A DNA stretch of 11,216 nt from Candidatus Roizmanbacteria bacterium (GTDB taxonomy: Bacteria; Patescibacteriota; Microgenomatia; UBA1406; GWC2-37-13): NCBI GenBank assembly GCA_016186235.1, contig JACPMD010000108.1:1-11216 (forward strand), in the 5' to 3' direction. Within the stretch, counting starts at the first letter, position 1, and each line of letters starts with the position of its first letter. Both the position numbers and the translations under genes were made by a program. Below the pieces are notes generated by a model. It had not been told where the DNA came from. It saw only the letters and a program-made list of their open reading frames with translations, and did not search any database. Below are positions 1 to 11,216 of the stretch, one piece after another.

Positions 1-787
1 ATAATTTTTTTGTTTTTATCGACACTACTCCTAGCATCTCGAGCAACACCTGATTATTAACAATCGACTGCATAAAAAACTTTGTATCCTCTTTAACGAG
101 CGAAACCACAATCCTTTTTGTCACTTTTTCTACATCATTCAAAATTTGCTCAACAAATCGATATTTTTGATTCAATCTTTTACCTACTAGATTAATCATT
201 TCTGCTGTAGATTCTCTTGGTCTTCCAGAATCAATCAAATATAGTCTGTCCTCGATGTTTTTGGTAATTTTAAAATTCAACGATGAGATATTCTTCAAAA
301 ATTCAAATTCTTTCCGAAAATAGATCAACCCTCCGAAACAAGATGCAGAAACATCAAGACCTGAAGGAATTTTGTGAAAATGCTTCTCAATTTCATATGC
401 AAGGTTATTTATTTTTTCTTTTTCAAATTCTTTTCCGGTATAAAATTCCAAAAATGCTGCAGCTGTTGCTACCGATAGAGCAGCAGAGGAGCCTAATCCT
501 CTTGCTAAAGGAACCGCAGATTTTATCATACAGCTAAATTTTTTATCATGAAAGTGGTCTTTTTGCTTCTTCAAGTAACTCCTTACTTTATCTGAAATAA
601 GGGAAATTTCTTTCGAAGTATTTATTTTTTTGCTCGATCCCTCATGTTCGGTAATGGAGCATGTCAATCGAAGGTCAATTGCCGAAACTAAGGCTGGTTT
701 ACTATATACAGCTGCATGCTCGCCTGAAAGAATGACTTTAGCAGGAGCGCTATAACTAACTATTGTATTTGAGGTTTTATGTTTCAT
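1..787 (-). CDS. mvk: mevalonate kinase, GHMP family (3' end cut by window edge)
   Basis: ATP-dependent phosphorylation of mevalonate to 5-phosphomevalonate in the cytoplasm. Reading the minus strand from the ATG at 787 gives 262 residues without a stop up to the left edge. Seen motifs: the N-terminal GHMP segment SAPAKVILSGEHAAVYSKPA (about 12-32), the phosphate-binding glycine/serine loop PLARGLGSSAALSVA (about 93-107), and the catalytic-aspartate region HKIPSGLD (138-145), followed by FGGLIYF, as in mevalonate kinases. The usual form near the aspartate is HGxPSGxD, so K139 is a variant. It is the last visible gene of the mevalonate operon, 16 bases after the DUF35 gene. The C-terminal GHMP domain is only partly present because the window ends. 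Another GHMP kinase (phosphomevalonate kinase or a decarboxylase) is less likely, given the N-terminal motif and context. Confidence 0.88.
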   Translation of the reverse strand, partial: MKHKTSNTIVSYSAPAKVILSGEHAAVYSKPALVSAIDLRLTCSITEHEGSSKKINTSKEISLISDKVRSYLKKQKDHFHDKKFSCMIKSAVPLARGLGSSAALSVATAAAFLEFYTGKEFEKEKINNLAYEIEKHFHKIPSGLDVSASCFGGLIYFRKEFEFLKNISSLNFKITKNIEDRLYLIDSGRPRESTAEMINLVGKRLNQKYRFVEQILNDVEKVTKRIVVSLVKEDTKFFMQSIVNNQVLLEMLGVVSIKTKKL

Positions 788-803
788 GTTTTACGTTTTA
801 CTC

Positions 804-1103
804 TTACGTAGGTTTAAACTTTATTCCATATACCAAAACATCCTCAGCTCCTCCCTCTCGGACTTTGCGAAGAATGGCGACAACTTTTCTTCCTATTTTT
901 AAATCATCTTTATCATAATCTACTAATTGAGCTGTGGCTTTTTGATGGTTTTCTAACTCAACGATAACGATAGGATAGGGAGCGAATTTTTTAAACTCTG
1001 GTCCGGCTGCGTAAATAATCGACCAGGTTAGAATTTTTCCTTTCTTTCCCAGAATACTCCTGATTTCCTTTTGCCTTCTCCAGATTTTTACCGGGCTTAT
1101 CAT
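804..1103 (-). CDS. DUF35 OB-fold protein, scaffold-like partner of thiolase and HMG-CoA synthase, zinc ribbon absent
   Basis: A 99-aa protein. In methanogenic archaea a DUF35 protein bridges acetoacetyl-CoA thiolase and HMG-CoA synthase in one complex, and the same role is inferred here from gene order. Seen: the N-terminal helix SPVKIWRRQKEIRS, then directly the OB-fold: GKKGKILTW, APYPIVIVELE, the AQLVDYD strand, KIGRKVVAILRKV and the terminal YGIKFKPT, which matches the typical YGxKFxP end. There is no cysteine at all, so the four-Cys zinc ribbon normally found between the helix and the OB-fold is missing. I chose the ATG at 1103, five bases after the thiolase stop. A longer TTG start at 1130 would only read the thiolase C-terminus out of frame. 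Confidence 0.82.
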   Translation of the reverse strand: MISPVKIWRRQKEIRSILGKKGKILTWSIIYAAGPEFKKFAPYPIVIVELENHQKATAQLVDYDKDDLKIGRKVVAILRKVREGGAEDVLVYGIKFKPT

Positions 1104-1107
1104 ATAG

Positions 1108-2259
1108 TTAGTTGCCCAAAATCGTAACAACAGCGGTTCCGCCGCTCCCGCCTACATTATGGGCGAGTCCACATTTGGCATTTTTAACCTGTCTGTTGAC
1201 GGCTTGGTTTGTGAGTTGCAAAAAAACCTCTCCGATTTGTTTTATGCCTGTTGCTCCAACCGGATGACCTGAAGCTTTTAATCCTCCTGACGTATTCACA
1301 ATAAGATCATTGCCTGAGCCATACATTGTTACTCGTTCTTTCGCTTTTTTTCCGCCGCTTCCTTTTTTCCAAAAGCCGAGATCCTCCATGGCAAAAATTT
1401 CAGCTATGGAAAAACAGTCATGGACCTCGGCGACTTTCATATCTTTTGGCCTCAATTTAGAATGATTAAAGGCTTTTTCTGCAGCTATTCTCGTTGCAAA
1501 AATTTCATCGAGACTTTTTCTTCCTTTGAGAGAAATGGTATCTGTTGCTACCTCAGAAGCCAACACAGCTGCCTTATGGTTTGCTTTTGCAATGAGTAAT
1601 TTATCTGAGGAAAGGATGATGGCAGAAGCTCCATCTGAGATTGGTGAACAGTCTAAAACCTTAAGAGGTGATGCAATGTAGGCGCTTCGTAATATTTGAT
1701 CTACAGTAATTTTTTTTCTAAAGTGGGCTTTATCATTGAGGCTTCCGTGATAATGATTTTTATAGGAAATATGAGCTAGATGTTCTTCTGTATATTTGTA
1801 TTTTTCCAAATATACCTGCGCCATCATCGCATAGAGACCAGGGAATGTTAGCCCTGCTTCCTGCTCTTCGCCAGAGGCGGCAGATGCCAAAGCGTTCGTT
1901 GTCTCTTCAGGCGAATAATCGGTCATTTTTTCTGCGCCTACGACCAGTACGGTTTTTGCAGGGTGCGATTCTAGATAGTTTTTTGCAAGGTGAAATGCGA
2001 CTCCGCCTGAGGCGCAAGCCGCCTCAACTCTGAAGATGGGAATATGGACTCCAAGTATTTCTGCTATTTTTGACGGAGCATGTAGATTATTTTCAAGAAC
2101 GCCAGCGAGCATATTGGCAAAAAAAATTGCGTCAATCTCTCGTTTGTCCATAAAGGAATTGTTCAATACTCCGTCTACAGATTCCTCTATCAGATCGCTA
2201 AAAGACTTTTCCCAAAGTTCGCCAAATTGTGTTGTGTAATACCCTATGACAGATGTCAT
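1108..2259 (-). CDS. acetyl-CoA C-acetyltransferase (archaeal/SCP-x type thiolase)
   Basis: Claisen condensation of two acetyl-CoA to acetoacetyl-CoA, the first step of the mevalonate pathway. The protein has 383 aa, a normal length for the family. Seen: the nucleophilic cysteine in VEAACASGG (C82), the HDCFSIAE motif (H280), the GGLKASGHPVGATG motif with the catalytic histidine (H332), and the C-terminal CGLAHNVGGSGG segment (C363, H367). The HDCF and LAHNVGGSGG motifs are those of the archaeal/SCP-x thiolases rather than classical bacterial AtoB. The ATG follows the HMG-CoA synthase stop directly (TAAATG, no spacer), which suggests translational coupling. It is followed five bases later by the DUF35 gene. 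This arrangement supports a channelled thiolase-DUF35-synthase complex in which the endergonic thiolase step is pulled by the synthase. Confidence 0.9.
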   Translation of the reverse strand: MTSVIGYYTTQFGELWEKSFSDLIEESVDGVLNNSFMDKREIDAIFFANMLAGVLENNLHAPSKIAEILGVHIPIFRVEAACASGGVAFHLAKNYLESHPAKTVLVVGAEKMTDYSPEETTNALASAASGEEQEAGLTFPGLYAMMAQVYLEKYKYTEEHLAHISYKNHYHGSLNDKAHFRKKITVDQILRSAYIASPLKVLDCSPISDGASAIILSSDKLLIAKANHKAAVLASEVATDTISLKGRKSLDEIFATRIAAEKAFNHSKLRPKDMKVAEVHDCFSIAEIFAMEDLGFWKKGSGGKKAKERVTMYGSGNDLIVNTSGGLKASGHPVGATGIKQIGEVFLQLTNQAVNRQVKNAKCGLAHNVGGSGGTAVVTILGN

Positions 2260-3282
2260 TTAGATCATGTGCATAAATTTCAAATAGGTGGGGTAAGTGA
2301 TGTAGTTTTTATCCTGCAAAAAATTATTGAATGGTCGTTTCTTTTTCGCAAGGTGTTCTGTTACTTTAAATATAAAGCCATCTGAACCGGCTCCCGAACC
2401 ATACGATGCAAAGAATATAAGATCTCCTTTTTTCGCCACTTCTAAAACCGAAACTAATCCCATTAAAGCAGAAGCAGCATATGAGTTGCCTAAATATTTG
2501 ACAATAAGGGACTTTTCTATCTGTTTTTCTTTAAAACCTAGTGTCCTTGCTATTTCTACAGGAAATTTTCCATTCGGCATATGAAACACAGCATGCGCAA
2601 AATCTTCAGGTTCGAGTCTATTTTTCTTCAAGAGAATACGAGAAACCTGTTGAATATGATGAAAGTATGAAGGCTTGCCGGTAAACCTTCCGCCGTGCGA
2701 TGGGTATCGAATTCCTTCTCTTCGCCAAAAATCCGGAGTATCAGACGAGTATGAAGCTTTGTCAATGACTTCAAGAATGACATTATTTTTTCCTAGAAGC
2801 AAACTGACCGAGGCCGAAGCGGCGGTATATTCAAGGAGATCATGAGGTTTGGCGTTTGCTTTATCTGAAGCTACCACTAATGCGTACTTTGTAAAATTAG
2901 TTTCGACGAGCGATAAGGCTGAAATCATCGCTCCTGTTGCTGCCTTACAAGCAAACTGCGTATCGTATGCAAGATAGTTATGATCTACGCCGAGAAACTC
3001 ACCTAGTATTGTTGAGGCTGGGTTAACAACATACGGAGGGGTCTCCGATCCAAAAAAAATAGTTTTCAAATCGGAGTCTTTCATCTCTAGATCTTTCAGT
3101 GCCATAGATGCGGATTGATACCCCATCGTTAAAGAATCCTCGTCTTCCTCAGACACAGCCTTTTCTTCTACTCCTAAAGAAGCGCGAACATTTTTTGGAT
3201 CTTTTCCCCATACGTTTGCAATCTCATCGATTCTGATTCGATTGCGAGGAATGTAAAACCCGTAAGAAACAATGCCTGTCAT
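2260..3282 (-). CDS. hydroxymethylglutaryl-CoA synthase, archaeal type
   Basis: Condenses acetyl-CoA with acetoacetyl-CoA to HMG-CoA. The protein has 340 aa from the ATG at 3282, which has an AAGGAG ribosome binding site 4 bases upstream. A TTG start at 3297 is possible but places the ribosome site inside the gene. Catalytic triad seen: E80 in FGSETPPYVV, C112 in QFACKAATGAM, and H234 in FHMPNGKF. Other landmarks are the N-terminal GIVSYGFYIPRNRI, the SYGSGAGSDGFIFKV strand near 293-307, and the C-terminal ITYPTYLKF. It is short, like archaeal HMG-CoA synthases. The gene lies 16 bases after HMG-CoA reductase and abuts the thiolase. Confidence 0.92.
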   Translation of the reverse strand: MTGIVSYGFYIPRNRIRIDEIANVWGKDPKNVRASLGVEEKAVSEEDEDSLTMGYQSASMALKDLEMKDSDLKTIFFGSETPPYVVNPASTILGEFLGVDHNYLAYDTQFACKAATGAMISALSLVETNFTKYALVVASDKANAKPHDLLEYTAASASVSLLLGKNNVILEVIDKASYSSDTPDFWRREGIRYPSHGGRFTGKPSYFHHIQQVSRILLKKNRLEPEDFAHAVFHMPNGKFPVEIARTLGFKEKQIEKSLIVKYLGNSYAASALMGLVSVLEVAKKGDLIFFASYGSGAGSDGFIFKVTEHLAKKKRPFNNFLQDKNYITYPTYLKFMHMI

Positions 3283-3286
3283 ATTT

Positions 3287-3292
3287 CTCCTT
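3287..3292 (-). promoter_or_regulatory. strong Shine-Dalgarno site of HMG-CoA synthase
   Basis: The minus strand reads AAGGAG, then AAAT, then ATG. It decides the ATG start at 3282 over the upstream TTG. It is the clearest Shine-Dalgarno site in the window; I did not see an equally strong one at the other starts I inspected. Confidence 0.75.
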
Positions 3293-3298
3293 GTCAAT

Positions 3299-4423
3299 TT
3301 ACCTTCCTAATTTTTTGTGCGCTTTTGCGAGCGAACCCTCTGATAATGAAGCGAGTAACGAGAGTTCTCCAGCCAAAACCGCTCCACCCACAACTTCAGC
3401 TAACTCAATCGATGTGTTTACGCCGGTGATTGATCGTGCCTCTTCTTGAGTTTTTAGCCCGGTTCCGCCGCCTACTGTGCCGAGCATAACTGCAGGAAGA
3501 TATATAGAAATATATAAATCCTCGCTTGGCAGAACTTTCATCGTCGTAATTCCTAAACTTCCTTCAACAACGTGGGCCAAATCCTGACCTGTAGCAGCAA
3601 AAAAAGCGGCAACGACATTTGCAAAGTGGGCATTAAAACCAAGCGACCCGCTCATGGCCGATCCGATCATACATTTCGCCAACCATACGTCAAATATCTT
3701 TCCTAGCGTTGTCTTTAATACTTCTTTTACAATTCTTGCTGAGATAACTACTTCTGCCCATACTTTGAAACCGCGGTTATTAATAAAGTTCATCCATGCA
3801 GCTTTTTTATCAACATCGAAGTTTCCTGCTAAAGAAAGACACTGGAAGCCTGTTTTTTCGGAAATGTAGTCAACCATTTTTTCGGATGCAATTGTCGCCA
3901 TATTCATTCCCATGGCATCCTGAGTATCAAAGTAAAAGCGAATGAAGGCATAACTGCCTACAGTTCTTATGTCATATTTTTTGAATGAAAGATGCGATGA
4001 TGTGCTTTCGGCTACTTTGGTAAGCTGTTTTTCATTTCTCTTTAACCATTGATAGAATTCCTCGCTTTTTCTGATAGAGCCTGTATAAAAAACCGGTCCA
4101 CGTGTCGTTCCAACTCGGTGAGCATTTACCAACGCACCTCCTGATAACGTAATTGCTTTACATCCCCTACTGACTGAGGCGACTAATGCTCCTTCTGTCG
4201 TTGCTAGTGGAATATATACAGTCTCATTTTTTACGTTTTCGCCCTTTAGCTCCAATGGTCCTGCTATCCCTACCGGTAAAGAGATTGCTCCGATGAGATT
4301 TTCACAATGAATATCCTCCTCCCTGTCTATTAAAACCTTTCTGATGTTTTTTAATTCAACGCGCTGGTCTTTCTCGAGAAGATTTTGTCTTTCCTCAAGG
4401 CTTTTCAAATGGCGTAGTGTCAT
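3299..4423 (-). CDS. hmgA: hydroxymethylglutaryl-CoA reductase, class I-like
   Basis: Reduces HMG-CoA to mevalonate with two NAD(P)H, the committed step to isoprenoids. The protein has 374 aa, close to the usual length of soluble archaeal and bacterial class I-like enzymes, with no membrane anchor. Seen: catalytic glutamate E77 in ATTEGALVAS, the cofactor motif DAMGMNM (169-175), the catalytic lysine in VDKKAAW (about K206), the aspartate in ATGQDLAHVVEGS (D281), the glycine-rich GTVGGGTGL (315-323), and a C-terminal histidine in AKAHKKLGR (H369). All core catalytic residues are therefore present. The DAMGMNM motif points to NADPH by family analogy, but this is not proven. The start is ATG at 4423, 47 bases after the Yip1-like gene, the longest gap in the operon, so a secondary promoter is possible; none is clear. 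Confidence 0.93.
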   Translation of the reverse strand: MTLRHLKSLEERQNLLEKDQRVELKNIRKVLIDREEDIHCENLIGAISLPVGIAGPLELKGENVKNETVYIPLATTEGALVASVSRGCKAITLSGGALVNAHRVGTTRGPVFYTGSIRKSEEFYQWLKRNEKQLTKVAESTSSHLSFKKYDIRTVGSYAFIRFYFDTQDAMGMNMATIASEKMVDYISEKTGFQCLSLAGNFDVDKKAAWMNFINNRGFKVWAEVVISARIVKEVLKTTLGKIFDVWLAKCMIGSAMSGSLGFNAHFANVVAAFFAATGQDLAHVVEGSLGITTMKVLPSEDLYISIYLPAVMLGTVGGGTGLKTQEEARSITGVNTSIELAEVVGGAVLAGELSLLASLSEGSLAKAHKKLGR

Positions 4424-5082: not shown

Positions 5083-5305
5083 ACTGGAGAAGCGAAACCA
5101 ATTTGACAATCAAAGGTCCCAGAAGAATGTAAATGAAAAATGCTAAAAGAAATGATAACGGAACTATATATAAAAATGGCATACTTTTAAGAAAAGAGGT
5201 AATCATTTTATAGATATGAGTTATGTGAGCAGGCCCTAAGTCTGCAGGTTCTAGAAAAAAGACCTCATCCATTTTTTGCTGAAGTCTATATTGGAATGTT
5301 CTCAT
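5072..5305 (-). CDS. small single-helix membrane protein of unknown function
   Basis: A 77-aa protein that I do not assign to a family. The N-terminal half is soluble (residues 1-40, with the segment EPADLGPAHITHIYKM), followed by one hydrophobic stretch at about 42-66 and a short tail. Its ATG at 5305 lies 20 bases inside the end of the sigma-factor gene, and its own end overlaps the next gene by 11 bases. This tight coupling supports a real gene. A membrane protein directly after an ECF sigma gene could be an anti-sigma factor, but no HxxxCxxC zinc anti-sigma motif is present and there is no cysteine in the protein, so this remains a guess from position. Confidence 0.6.
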   Translation of the reverse strand: MRTFQYRLQQKMDEVFFLEPADLGPAHITHIYKMITSFLKSMPFLYIVPLSFLLAFFIYILLGPLIVKLVSLLQYGF

Positions 5306-5840
5306 ATAGTTTCCTGAATGCTTTTCTTGCCCGAAAGAGCAGACTTTCGGTCGCCTTAAATCCTAACGACAATTTTTCGGCAATTTTTGCAACTTTTTCC
5401 CCATCTATATATTTAAGTCTTAATATGAGTTGATAATCATTTGGTAACGACTCTAAAACTCTTTTTATTTTGCTTTGTAACTCCTTTCGTTCAATCTCAT
5501 CGTCGATCAAAATTGTCTTCAATCCTTCTACAAAATAAGAGGGGAGCGAAGAGAAAAGGATTTTTTTTATCTTCTTCTTCCGAATGACGTCGATTACTTT
5601 ATTTTTCGCAATAGAAAAAAGAAATGTTTTTATCGAACATTGATATCTAAAATCTCTCAAACTCTCTATAAAATCCAGAAAAACATCCTGAGCCAGCTCT
5701 TCTGATTCATGATAATTTTGCAGTTTCCGATTAATAAACTGAAAAATTACTTTGTGGTATTTCTTATGCACGAGAATGAGACTTTTTTCGTCTTTGTGGA
5801 GAATTCTGTCGATTGTCTTTCTCTCTTCGTCTGTAGTCAC
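5286..5840 (-). CDS. RNA polymerase sigma factor, sigma-70 family, ECF type
   Basis: A 184-aa alternative sigma factor that directs RNA polymerase to a specific promoter set. Region 2 is at about 20-90: SEELAQDVFLDFIESL, then RYQCSIKTFLFSIAKNKVIDVIRKKK, the typical core-binding and -10-reading helices. Region 4 is at about 118-182: LESLPNDYQLILRLKYIDG, then KVAKIAEKLSLGFKATESLLFRARKAFRKL, the helix-turn-helix reading the -35. Regions 1 and 3 are absent, as expected for ECF factors. The start is a GTG at 5840 with no ribosome site. The predicted transcription start falls on or next to this codon, so the mRNA may be leaderless. It is first gene of the unit that goes on to the mevalonate genes, which suggests, but does not show, that it controls them or itself. 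Confidence 0.88.
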   Translation of the reverse strand: MTTDEERKTIDRILHKDEKSLILVHKKYHKVIFQFINRKLQNYHESEELAQDVFLDFIESLRDFRYQCSIKTFLFSIAKNKVIDVIRKKKIKKILFSSLPSYFVEGLKTILIDDEIERKELQSKIKRVLESLPNDYQLILRLKYIDGEKVAKIAEKLSLGFKATESLLFRARKAFRKLYENIPI

Positions 5841-5845
5841 TGTTG

Positions 5846-5851
5846 TATAAT
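5846..5851 (+). promoter_or_regulatory. predicted -10 box of the DUF4340 gene
   Basis: A perfect TATAAT on the plus strand, 18 bases before the ATG at 5870. No convincing -35 was found at the right distance (the region 5822-5829 is CT-rich). It overlaps the -10 box of the divergent operon, so the two promoters would compete for polymerase. Confidence 0.35.
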
Positions 5852-5876
5852 ACTATTCTATCAAAACGCATGTCGA
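5847..5876 (-). promoter_or_regulatory. predicted sigma-70-like promoter of the sigma/mevalonate operon
   Basis: On the minus strand TCGACA (5871-5876, 5 of 6 bases matching TTGACA) is separated by 18 bases from TATTAT (5847-5852, 5 of 6 matching TATAAT). A start about 7 bases downstream falls at around 5840, the first base of the GTG codon. The -35 box lies inside the first codons of the divergent gene. Confidence 0.45.
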
Positions 5877-6754
5877 AAAATCGCGCAAGACTTAAGAAAT
5901 TAATAGCCCTGATCATTCTTCTTGTATTTGCATATTTTTTAAAAGATTTTGCTGTAACATTCTTCGCTTCTAAACCTCAACAACCTTCATCTTCATTAGA
6001 AAAAAGTGCTATTTCCGAAATTCTCATCAAGAATGATAAACAGGAATTCAGTCTCTATAAAAAGGGCGGAAGATGGCTTACAAAAAAGGCGGGCGAGGAA
6101 TTCCAAGCAGACGAAGAAAAGATCAGTCAAATAATCGAGAGTATTGCCGTACTTAAGAAGGACGAGATTGTTTCAAAAAATAAAAATAAACATGAAGAGT
6201 TTGGAATCGGCAACCAGACGATAACTTTAAAATCCGGTGGAAAATCATATGTGATATTCGTAGGAGATTCTGCAGGGATAACGAAAAATTATGTACGAAT
6301 CGATGATGAAAATGAAGTGTTTGCCGCTACCGGTTTTGATACTGTCTTTGCAGATACGGACTTTCTAGATCTCTCCCTTCATTTGATCAAAGACGAAAAC
6401 TTCATAACATCGGTAACAACCTATCTTGAAGGGAATACTTTATCGTTGGAAAAAAAGGGAAACGACTGGAAAATCGAAGATAGAACTGCCAAAAAAGACA
6501 GGGTTGATTTTTTCCTCAACGACCTAAAAACTTTAAAGGCAAAAGACATCCTCAAAAAACAAGAAAACTATCTGGACGTTAACCCTATACTATCTATAAT
6601 AATTAAAGAAAATAACAAAGAAAAAAATATTGGATTTTATTCCCAAAACGAAGAAGAATATTTTGTCAGAATCAATCCTTCTTCATATGATTATATTGTT
6701 GCCTCAGGTTTCGTGGCTTCGCTAAAAAAAGAGGAAAAAGATTTTTTTGAATAA
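5870..6754 (+). CDS. DUF4340-type membrane-anchored protein
   Basis: A 294-aa protein: a basic N-terminus, one membrane helix at about 9-25, then an all extracytoplasmic body. The pattern SEILIKNDKQEFSLYKKGGRWLTKKAGEEFQADEEKI fits the DUF4340 repeat: a strand pair ending in W, then an acidic stretch and a helix that counts down to a hinge. A second copy of the pattern appears later around TLSLEKKGNDWKIED and DRVDFFLNDLKTLKAKDIL. DUF4340 proteins are often found with ABC-type export or gliding genes; no transporter is seen here. I chose the ATG at 5870, since the in-frame TTG at 5843 lies upstream of or within the predicted -10. The function is unknown. It is the only protein gene on the plus strand in this window. 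Confidence 0.75.
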   Translation: MSKNRARLKKLIALIILLVFAYFLKDFAVTFFASKPQQPSSSLEKSAISEILIKNDKQEFSLYKKGGRWLTKKAGEEFQADEEKISQIIESIAVLKKDEIVSKNKNKHEEFGIGNQTITLKSGGKSYVIFVGDSAGITKNYVRIDDENEVFAATGFDTVFADTDFLDLSLHLIKDENFITSVTTYLEGNTLSLEKKGNDWKIEDRTAKKDRVDFFLNDLKTLKAKDILKKQENYLDVNPILSIIIKENNKEKNIGFYSQNEEEYFVRINPSSYDYIVASGFVASLKKEEKDFFE

Positions 6755-8799: not shown

Positions 8800-9348
8800 T
8801 TACTTTGGTACTAACTGGTTAATGATTTTTGTCACTTCGGATGGTTTTGGAACGTTGTAAAATTCAATATTTACTTCTGTTCCTGCGGTCTGGACAAAAA
8901 CATTCCCGTAGTTGAAAACAGACGCAAAAAAACCTCCACTTTTTGCAGTAACATCCTCTACTTTCCCAAGTTGGGCTTCGGTTACTTCTTTGTAAAGTAC
9001 CGAATGAAAATCGACGTCAATAATTCGTTCATTTGTTATGATCCCAACATTAAAAAACCAGCCCAAAAAGTTAAACCAAATATAGGCAAAGATTACGGCA
9101 AACCCGAATACGTTCGCAAAAAAAATTTGGGCAGGATTCAAAACACTCGGCAGGAAAAAATTAAGGATGATTAAGACGATAAGAAATACAATGCTATTGA
9201 TGATCCAAGGAAGCTGCGTAACAGGATGTGCGCGAAGCACGAGAATTACTTCCTCTCGTGTATGTTGACTTTCAAATCGATACCCGGGTTTTACGCAAAA
9301 TGCATGTAAAATCTGATGGGAAGTCTTTACTTTATCCATCGAAAACAT
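8800..9348 (-). CDS. bacterial PH-domain membrane protein (internal start of the long frame)
   Basis: The C-terminal half of the long frame read as its own 182-aa gene from the ATG at 9348 (or 179 aa from 9339). It begins FSMDKVKTSHQILHAFC and has two membrane helices (about 48-66 and 75-98). The bacterial PH domain (PF03703-like) lies at about 100-178, with the typical NERIIDVDFHSVLYKEVTEAQLGKVEDVTA pattern and a closing VPKPSEVTKIINQL helix. Such proteins are small membrane-peripheral proteins whose ligand is usually unknown. No ribosome site precedes either ATG because the upstream DNA is the 5S gene, so initiation would have to be weak or coupled. The 5S promoter lies across its first codons on the opposite strand. 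Confidence 0.6.
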   Translation of the reverse strand: MFSMDKVKTSHQILHAFCVKPGYRFESQHTREEVILVLRAHPVTQLPWIINSIVFLIVLIILNFFLPSVLNPAQIFFANVFGFAVIFAYIWFNFLGWFFNVGIITNERIIDVDFHSVLYKEVTEAQLGKVEDVTAKSGGFFASVFNYGNVFVQTAGTEVNIEFYNVPKPSEVTKIINQLVPK

Positions 9349-10050
9349 TATAATACATTTCGCCCTGGTTATTGGAGCGACTTGGTCCCACCCTTTCCCA
9401 TCCCGAACAAGGAAGTGAAACAGGTCAGCGCCGATGATACTTTCACGCTTAGCGTGAGGGGAAAGTAGGTCATAGCCGGGAAGTTCGAATATTGAATCTT
9501 CTATTTCTTCCTTTTTACACGCGCTCGCCAATTTCTCAACCGAAAATGTACTTGTATCAAATTTGCTGGTGACTTCATTTTTTGGCAGAAAGTTAAATGC
9601 TTGACTCATATCAAGAATGTTTAATTGAGAGAGTGTATCAAACAACGTGAGAAATGTTGATATTTCGCAAAGCTTTTCTCCGCTCGTGGAATTTTTTTTC
9701 CATGTATATAAACAATCGCCCTTTACTAAAAAGAGTGATGCCTCCGCAGATGCAATAGTTTCTGCAAAAACATTCCTATTTTTGATATAGGCGTTTATGG
9801 TAGATTCTTTCGAAGAATAGGAACATCTGAGCGGTCCTTGCAGATTAAGTTTTGCCGGAGACGAGGCAGTCAGGTCTTTTTCGTAAACAGATTTTTCATC
9901 AGGTGTTGGCGTCAATACAGTCTTTTCCGGCGCAATCGCTGCATTTTGAGAAAGCTTCATAAAAAGTACTACTATTATTACTGCAAGAGGAATAAAAATC
10001 ACCATTCTTGAGAAAAAATAGAGTACATCTTCGAGCGTGTCTTTTGACAT
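8800..10050 (-). CDS. single 416-codon frame: anchored four-cysteine domain plus PH-domain membrane protein, joined across antisense 5S rRNA
   Basis: One uninterrupted frame from the ATG at 10050. Residues 1-189: a membrane anchor (about 13-33), a Pro/Thr-rich linker, then an extracytoplasmic domain with four cysteines (76, 113, 128, 178) that may form disulfides; I do not recognise this family. Residues about 190-230 are read from the reverse of a 5S rRNA gene, so this stretch has no protein ancestry that I can see. From about residue 235 on, a two-helix membrane protein with a bacterial PH domain follows. Translation beginning at 10050 has no stop before 8800, so a fusion would be made if this start is used. 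More likely these are two former genes, the first having lost its stop at the 5S border near FELP. The start lies 8 bases after the DUF2130 gene. Confidence 0.5.
   Translation of the reverse strand: MSKDTLEDVLYFFSRMVIFIPLAVIIVVLFMKLSQNAAIAPEKTVLTPTPDEKSVYEKDLTASSPAKLNLQGPLRCSYSSKESTINAYIKNRNVFAETIASAEASLFLVKGDCLYTWKKNSTSGEKLCEISTFLTLFDTLSQLNILDMSQAFNFLPKNEVTSKFDTSTFSVEKLASACKKEEIEDSIFELPGYDLLSPHAKRESIIGADLFHFLVRDGKGWDQVAPITRAKCIIMFSMDKVKTSHQILHAFCVKPGYRFESQHTREEVILVLRAHPVTQLPWIINSIVFLIVLIILNFFLPSVLNPAQIFFANVFGFAVIFAYIWFNFLGWFFNVGIITNERIIDVDFHSVLYKEVTEAQLGKVEDVTAKSGGFFASVFNYGNVFVQTAGTEVNIEFYNVPKPSEVTKIINQLVPK
9326..9354 (+). promoter_or_regulatory. promoter of the 5S rRNA gene
   Basis: On the plus strand, TTTACT (9326-9331, 4 of 6 matching TTGACA) is followed after exactly 17 bases by a perfect TATAAT (9349-9354). 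The expected start is at about 9361-9362, one or two bases before the 5S helix begins. It overlaps the first codons of the PH-domain gene on the other strand. Confidence 0.7.
9363..9481 (+). rRNA. rrf: 5S ribosomal RNA
   Basis: About 119 bases. Seen: the bacterial signatures TTGGTCCCACC, TCCCGAAC and GGAAGTGAAAC, then GCGCCGATGATA. The ends pair as helix I (9364-9372 with 9472-9480, 9 continuous pairs with G-T wobbles). Helix II is 9379-9384 with 9421-9426 (6 pairs). The distal arm is TACTTTC 9438-9444 with GAAAGTA 9461-9467, topped by a CACGC-TTA-GCGTG hairpin (9444-9456). The fold is complete, so the gene is probably functional. No 16S or 23S is adjacent, so it is separate from any rRNA operon. 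Its whole length lies antisense inside a protein-coding frame. A short GGAAG/CTTCC stem with TTTTT after it at 9479-9516 is a weak terminator candidate. Confidence 0.93.
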
Positions 10051-10058
10051 ACGTTCAA

Positions 10059-11216
10059 TTAGAATAACGTTTCTCTTTTTTCCTCGGAATCTCCGTTTGA
10101 ATGAGAAGGAAGTATGTTTGTACCTTTTATCTCAGGAAGCGATTTTCCAACAATACTCTGAAGGTCGCCGCTCATTCCTAATATATTATTAATGATGCTT
10201 GAGATATTTTTCTCTTGTTTTGCCCACTTGAGAGTAAACCAACGTTTTTCTTTTTCTAAATCTTCTTTTATCTGTTCATATGCGTCATAAATTGCCTCGA
10301 TCCTTTGTTTAAATTCTATACCAGTTAAATAATTCCACAAAATCTCTTTCTTTTCTTTTTTGCCAACCATTGAAGTCTTAACAAGGGCTGTTTTAATGAG
10401 GGTGTCTCTTAATAACATCGTCAAACCAACAATAGATTCATAATTACAGACGAAGATCTCGCTTTTCATTGCAAAATTCTTGACGCCATCCGGCAATACC
10501 TGAGAAATTATGACGGCTATATCTGCTTTTACAACTCTTTGGTCTTGCTTCAGTTTCACTACCCACCCGTCCGTCCAGGCTTTTGCCCGCTTTGATTCCC
10601 AAATAATCATTCCGCACGGTTTGCCGAAATCATTGCAGACAATGTGTAAAATATCTGCTCCCCTCACTCCTTTTGGAACCTCTTTAATTTCGTCTGTTGG
10701 AAATTCTGCTTTTAACAATCTCTCCAATTCAAGCTCAAGAACCTCGCCTTGCGTCTGTTGGGAACCTTGTTCAAGTTTTCGCTTTAATTCGTTATTCATC
10801 TTTAATGCATCTTGAAGCTGCTTCTCTTTTTCCAATATCTTTAATCGATACTCTTCGTCTACTCTCTTTTTTTCCTCAAAGCGAATTTTTTCTTGTTCTA
10901 CGGCCAATTTTTTTTCAAGTTCGAGTCGAGTCTCCTCTTTTTCAGTTTTAAGTTGACGGATAAACCTGTTCAGTTCAAGAAGCTGTTCTTGCAGCTTTGC
11001 ATTTTGTCTCTGCAGTTCTTCTGCTTCATTCTCTTTGTCTTTGAGCTGAAAATGCATTTCATTTTTTATTTTTTTTGTAAGCTGATCCCTGATTTCTTCG
11101 GCGAGTTTTGTCTTTTCTTCAACAAGTCTTTGGGCAAAATACTTTTGATATTTTTCTCGAATTTGATGCGAGAGTGCTTGAGTCAAGGGAATTGTTTTTC
11201 TACAGTTGGGGCAGAT
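10059..11216 (-). CDS. DUF2130 coiled-coil protein (5' end cut by window edge)
   Basis: 385 visible residues; the frame is open through the right edge, so the start lies outside. The edge codes ICPNCRKTIPLTQALSHQ, an N-terminal CxxC zinc-ribbon half as expected in DUF2130 proteins. A long charged coiled coil follows (about 20-150, rich in E/K/Q heptads). The DUF2130 core comes next, with the hallmark segments LERLLKAEFPTDEIKEVPKG, VRGADILHIV, CGMIIWESKRAKAW and KADIAVIISQVLP. The restriction-endonuclease-like pattern around WESKR is often noted for this family; activity is not shown. An internal TTG at 11186 would drop the zinc motif and is unlikely as the start. It precedes the four-cysteine/PH frame by 8 bases. 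Confidence 0.87.
   Translation of the reverse strand: MCPNCRKTIPLTQALSHQIREKYQKYFAQRLVEEKTKLAEEIRDQLTKKIKNEMHFQLKDKENEAEELQRQNAKLQEQLLELNRFIRQLKTEKEETRLELEKKLAVEQEKIRFEEKKRVDEEYRLKILEKEKQLQDALKMNNELKRKLEQGSQQTQGEVLELELERLLKAEFPTDEIKEVPKGVRGADILHIVCNDFGKPCGMIIWESKRAKAWTDGWVVKLKQDQRVVKADIAVIISQVLPDGVKNFAMKSEIFVCNYESIVGLTMLLRDTLIKTALVKTSMVGKKEKKEILWNYLTGIEFKQRIEAIYDAYEQIKEDLEKEKRWFTLKWAKQEKNISSIINNILGMSGDLQSIVGKSLPEIKGTNILPSHSNGDSEEKRETLF

Follow-up and report, generated by a model that had tools for sequence, protein, structure and literature searches.

The minus-strand frame of 416 codons at 8800-10050 in this Candidatus Roizmanbacteria genome is probably a by-product and not a gene. Judging from comparison with related genomes, we think that an orphan 5S rRNA gene lies here between two separate genes, A and B, and that the divergent promoters of 5S and B have collapsed into one element. 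Gene A, followed up to its last family-like residues, covers 9481..10050 on the minus strand (190 codons, with no stop of its own and no Pfam match). Gene B, at 8800..9339 on the same strand, encodes a PH-domain-like membrane protein of 179 aa and is predicted to be leaderless. The run-through stretch that links the two frames (9340..9480, minus strand) is antisense to 5S and is judged not to be a gene. Sequence comparison yielded the conserved site, the separateness of A and B, the overlapping -10 boxes of 5S and B, and the changes of 5S orientation. By the window we mean the whole stretch of DNA that was analysed, 11,216 nt in length.

The 5S rRNA gene and its site in relatives

The 5S gene that the earlier note had placed at 9363..9481 is real. 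In a covariance-model search, RF00001 was matched over its full model (1-120) at 9364..9481 on the plus strand, with 75.5 bits against a gathering score of 38 (E 6.1e-15); the end of the proposed span was thus correct, while the start is at 9364. This is the single 5S located in the source assembly, a draft of 820 kb in 162 contigs, 80% complete. No 23S gene was present within the 11,216 nt, and the 16S and 23S genes of the source genome were not found in the 80%-complete draft. In relatives from the family and from the sister family f2 that have 5S and 23S on one contig (G004, G007, G010, G019 and G025), the two are separated by about 20 kb, as in G004, or more, up to several hundred kb. In the remaining relatives of both families they are on different contigs, or 23S was not found. 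16S is likewise apart, and the rRNA genes of these relatives are scattered.

Unlinked rRNA genes of bacteria were reportedly treated by Brewer and colleagues in 2020. The genomes analyzed here are similar in that 16S, 23S and 5S are apart in relatives. They differ in that one neighbour of the orphan 5S, B, is retained in two families, with 5S switching strand at the same site. Outside the order, 5S follows 23S at about 110 nt or less in G051, G053 and G054, the distance is 0.9 kb in G052 and 1.7 kb in G055, and the two genes are on different contigs in G056. G054 comes from a different family of the class. Its 23S is found together with 5S about 3 kb from B (G054:C1:247423-253919), an arrangement that may preserve a trace of the way in which B and 5S came to adjoin. 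For another Microgenomates genome, all three rRNA genes are described as one cluster in an excerpt of PMC7143001.

The position of 5S proved to be the same in relatives, i.e. the gap between A and B. A search of 72 genomes of the family detected 5S in 64 and B in 65. Both were on one contig in 61 of the 64 genomes, and in all of these 61 they were adjacent, the aligned part of B being at most 404 nt from 5S. The three exceptions were G010, which lacked a B match, and G022 and G036, in which B was on another contig. In sister family f2, 5S was located near B (45-996 nt) in each of the eight genomes with 5S. The upstream frame, where found in this family, is unlike A (6/8, by eye).

Of 72 loci, 65 have a T run within 15 nt 3' of 5S; among the seven without it, G086 has no flank. 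In the source genome the T run is absent, and a terminator scan detected no terminator. A weak hairpin with a T-rich tail at 9479..9516 on the plus strand (fold -6.6 kcal/mol, with 30 of 200 shuffles equally stable) might serve as a substitute terminator of 5S.

Promoters of 5S and B

The putative 5S promoter, TTTACT-17-TATAAT (9326-9354, plus strand), consists of a -35 at 9326..9331, inside B codons 3-5, and a -10 at 9349..9354, 9 nt before the mature 5' end. The earlier note had called this promoter good, which holds as far as its 10/12 matches and its conservation in relatives are concerned. The promoter scan taken alone, however, was no better than chance (1 found vs. shuffle mean 0.9). 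A -10-like box, defined as at least 5/6 to TATAAT and 5-12 nt before the mature 5S end, occurred in 67 of 71 loci, compared with 4-17 of 71 in seven control windows further up. G054 was omitted from the promoter counts as non-adjacent and from another family; 71 of the 72 loci entered the 5S control windows. The -35 signal is visible family-wide: at a spacer of exactly 17 bp the mean match to TTGACA is 3.37/6, against 1.06-2.10 at other spacers from 8 to 29, and 31 of 71 loci match at this distance in at least 4/6 positions.

Gene B has its own -10, TATAAT, at 9347..9352 on the minus strand, 7 nt before the ATG. Across the loci, a -10-like box precedes the B start in 65 of 68 (controls 2-20/68), a count somewhat favoured by the script, which preferred a good -10 when choosing the start. 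No -35 was apparent for B promoters family-wide, the highest mean match being 2.03. In a leaderless mRNA the transcript begins at the start codon, without a Shine-Dalgarno leader. B resembles such mRNAs, its start being predicted: in 63 of 68 loci the box and the start codon are 6-8 nt apart, and an SD-like 4-mer within 18 nt of the start was found in 1/68 only. From the position of the -10 box 7 nt before the ATG and the lack of a Shine-Dalgarno sequence, a leaderless mRNA is predicted for gene B. Its promoter is predicted to be weaker than that of 5S.

In the source genome, the -10 boxes of 5S and B share 4 bp and together form the palindrome ATTATAAT (9347-9354). Such an overlap was seen in 21 of the 53 family loci with opposed genes that could be scored; the total of opposed family loci is 57, and G010, G022, G036 and G062 had no scorable B start (G062 was also omitted from the count of shared and separate boxes). 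The offset is 2 in the source genome (G000) and in G011 and 4 in the 19 others, including G069, which was assigned by its sequence and a second rule (the first script gave 9). Assuming that transcription starts 7 nt past the -10, the predicted start spacing would be 21 bp at offset 2 and 23 bp at offset 4. Almost all offset-4 loci (18/19) carry TTGTTT, a 3/6 match to TTGACA, in the first B codons at a distance of 17 bp. In the other 32 loci the boxes do not overlap: they are 16 bp apart in G009 and 24-89 bp apart in 31, and some of the 32 have poor -10 calls, e.g. G008, G080 and G084. In the 5S-B gap of one genome, G014 (locus L024), the B -10 region contains AGTATATAAT, the symmetric element of the overlapping group, and the 5S promoter is elsewhere.

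A tree of 67 B proteins was used, i.e. a gene tree standing in for the species tree, with G004 and G028 left out as too short. On this tree the overlap requires two changes, both forced by well-supported branches. A single clade of overlapping loci is disfavoured (AU p 0.010), the p-value being lenient as the one-clade tests were picked after tree inspection. The source genome is nested in a group in which the boxes are separate in G001 and G058, the remaining opposed members; the 20 other genomes with overlap, together with G062, constitute one group (support 84/94).

These loci may be compared with the bidirectional promoters studied by Warman, Grainger and colleagues, for which we draw on excerpts of PMC12825309 and PMC10268837. 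The class is defined there by starts 7-25 bp apart (PMC10268837), and in E. coli the commonest start distance is 18 bp, with 10 and 23 bp also common (PMC12825309). The source genome combines an overlap of 4 bp with a predicted start distance of 21 bp, and both this distance, shared with G011, and the 23 bp of the 19 species with offset 4 lie within 7-25 bp. The differences are that an rRNA is paired here with a predicted leaderless mRNA, that a -35 is present on the 5S side only, and that the starts are predicted. In the excerpted passages of PMC10268837 on bidirectional promoters the word rRNA does not occur. Neither a 5S gene with a shared divergent promoter nor its in-place strand change was seen for these bacteria in open-access titles and abstract openings, which is weak evidence of absence.

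The A/5S junction and the orientation of 5S

A frame upstream of 5S was detected by script in 56 of the 64 family genomes. It ends 3 to 200 nt before 5S in 54 of the 56 and 12 nt inside 5S in G036, and it reads through 5S in the source genome only. The typical tail of A has a Cys followed by roughly F-x-x-P-K-N-I/V-x-F and a few more residues. This motif was found in 42 upstream frames; the 14 outside the pattern, the source genome included, were taken as A on account of their position and similar end. In the source genome, the frame matches the A tail up to the proline and continues as antisense 5S, the stop and the conserved last codons of A being missing. Since the proline codon CCC (9478-9480) is formed by the last helix letters of 5S, the simplest history would be that the DNA lying between the original proline codon of A and the end of 5S was deleted.

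The earlier note had also considered that the minus-strand unit might be broken at 5S. The end of A is indeed altered, but the interruption of a single gene or unit is not supported: throughout the family 5S is located in this gap, the frames of A and B are distinct in relatives, and a -10 directly precedes the ATG of B. The idea that the 416-aa frame was a once-intact gene into which 5S was inserted was likewise rejected, as 5S is flanked in relatives by A and B as two distinct frames.

The alternative that survives best, although we give it a low probability, is that the A/5S junction was misassembled. A would then end in a normal stop, followed by a spacer, in the real genome, and there would be no 416-codon frame. 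Such an error would fit with read-through in one of 56 genomes, with a draft in 162 contigs whose junction is on one of them, and with the lack of a second copy of the species, the best other B match being 78% identical (among 120 listed of 467). However, only a few letters (CCC) are common at the junction, a repeat presumably too short by itself to mislead an assembler. Moreover, A nearly abuts 5S in many relatives, and its stop in G036 is even inside 5S. An artefact of this kind would leave the part of our explanation that concerns 5S and B standing.

As for orientation, 57 of the 64 family genomes have 5S opposed to B, or to A if B is missing, whereas 5S runs the same way as A and B in seven (G006, G015, G033, G035, G057, G059 and G060). 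When G054, from another family and with 3 kb between 5S and B, is taken in, the opposed loci total 58. In sister family f2, 5S is co-oriented with B in all eight genomes. Where 5S is co-oriented in the family, both its -10 box and its T run accompany it. Orientation requires five changes on the tree of B proteins (4-6 over bootstrap trees), and at least four of them are forced by well-supported branches. A topology with all co-oriented loci in one clade is rejected (AU p 9.7e-6, lenient for the reason given for the overlap test). The sister genomes G057 and G058 (99/91) even have 5S in opposite orientations.

These changes bear on the suggestion of the earlier note that 5S might be tuned by antisense transcription, with transcripts of A crossing 5S and lowering or timing its output by collision or antisense RNA. 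The opposed layout in most family genomes would suit such a mechanism, and so would the many opposed loci in which A ends at most 30 nt from the 3' end of 5S, leaving little room for an A terminator. However, because 5S is co-oriented in seven of the 64 family genomes and in all eight of f2, a conserved antisense control is disfavoured. In addition, with a -10 of its own, B would not need read-through for its expression. We therefore regard antisense tuning as unlikely; antisense RNA from A across 5S is possible in our preferred explanation, but it is not needed.

Genes A and B and the proposed shared promoter element

The minus-strand frame is open across the whole of 5S, as had been claimed: it runs for 416 aa without a stop, residue 191 is the first with a codon in 5S, and residue 235 is a Met able to start B. 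Such openness is unsurprising, since at least one stop-free antisense 5S frame exists in 58 of 72 loci. Searched separately, and with the source genome counted in both, A was matched in 32 of 57 genomes and B in 54 of 57. When A alone served as a protein query, nothing was matched, not even A of the window itself, and its homologues are thus known solely from six-frame genome searches. For B, the protein collection contains an entry of 179 aa from a contig of 11,216 bases (P0040), identical to B from the ATG at 9339. Its score against bPH_2 (PF03703) was 18.3 bits, below the Pfam cut-off of 22, for which reason we call it PH-like only; some relatives carry PF03703. The B matches in G004, G005, G017 and G021 contain one stop each, and that of G004 (G004:C1:74171-74702) is split over two frames.

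With the 416-aa frame as query, 7997 candidates sharing most words were scored and 39 matches were obtained. The alignment starts at residue 237 or later in 34 of them and at residues 199, 218, 222, 223 and 226 in the other five. None of the 39 joins A to B; homologues continuous through residues 190-230 where 5S is absent, which in the earlier note would have spoken against its claim, are thus lacking among them. Matches longer than B were considered as possible A-B fusions and rejected: in the nine sequences read (P0001, P0005, P0008, P0015, P0020, P0032, P0033, P0035 and P0038, including the five early-starting matches) the N-termini are their own and, by eye, unlike A. The nearest named relatives are metagenome genomes of Candidatus Roizmanbacteria, which account for five of six loci examined; the sixth is a chance match. 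A candidate for a second natural A/5S fusion, on a Scalindua contig (L122, residues 177-206), was also discarded, as its frame looks like a histidine kinase by eye and 5S was not found. That A, 40-odd antisense-5S residues and B are really made as one 416-aa chain is, in spite of the open frame in register with B, very improbable, given the lack of a joining match among the 39 obtained, the separately listed B protein, the cheapness of open antisense 5S frames and the fact that the same stretch must also serve as 5S.

The minus-strand neighbours had been described as co-oriented, which is true of all genes except the one at 5843-6754, located on the plus strand. This gene (DUF4340) is divergent from an ECF-type sigma factor gene at 5286-5840 on the minus strand (Sigma70_r2, r4_2), with almost no gap between them. 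The minus-strand run at 2-4423 encodes a GHMP kinase, an OB-fold protein (OB_ChsH2_C), a thiolase, an HMG-CoA synthase-like protein and an HMG-CoA reductase, and looks like the upper mevalonate pathway. Beside gene A, at 10059-11216 on the minus strand, lies a gene for a DUF2130 protein with a long coiled-coil-like N-terminal part.

In Candidatus Roizmanbacteria, then, our favoured explanation of a collapsed divergent promoter would work as follows; from the comparisons we infer its start sites, leaderless translation, mutual exclusion and order of events. The orphan 5S, in its family-typical site, would be transcribed from its own promoter. B would be transcribed in the opposite direction and at a lower level, from a -10 box of its own within the same melted region, and its mRNA would be leaderless. 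In the source genome, the gap between 5S and B would have shrunk until the opposed -10 boxes overlapped in ATTATAAT, and the loss of A's stop and last codons would have left its frame open through antisense 5S into B. RNA polymerase would bind in one direction at a time, and starts of 5S and B would exclude each other. According to the excerpt of PMC12825309, opposing polymerases cannot occupy a bidirectional promoter together, and high 5S output should for this reason hold B down; the five promoters tested there all had too little basal activity for the polymerases to compete, except when one direction was activated. Because the -35 is on the 5S side only, 5S is predicted to be favoured over B.

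More tentatively, and with much less confidence than in the explanation for the source genome, we propose a generalization to part of the Roizmanbacteria family. From a single symmetric -10, the only 5S found in the genome may be transcribed in one direction and a leaderless mRNA for a membrane protein in the other, an arrangement that would have arisen at least two times as a divergent promoter shrank. The 5S cassette (-10, gene and T run) may also turn in place, perhaps helped by the inverted repeat of its closing helix.

If this is true, each choice of the polymerase would yield either a part of the ribosome or membrane protein B. A spurious fusion gene would be removed, and there would be a natural, repeated example of apparent competition between an rRNA gene and an mRNA for a single promoter. 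A ready comparison for the coupling of ribosome production to another gene would be available in the 21 genomes whose boxes overlap and the 32 scored genomes whose boxes do not. For these small-genome bacteria, it would mean that an orphan 5S gene has been kept in one place across a family despite its strand changes.
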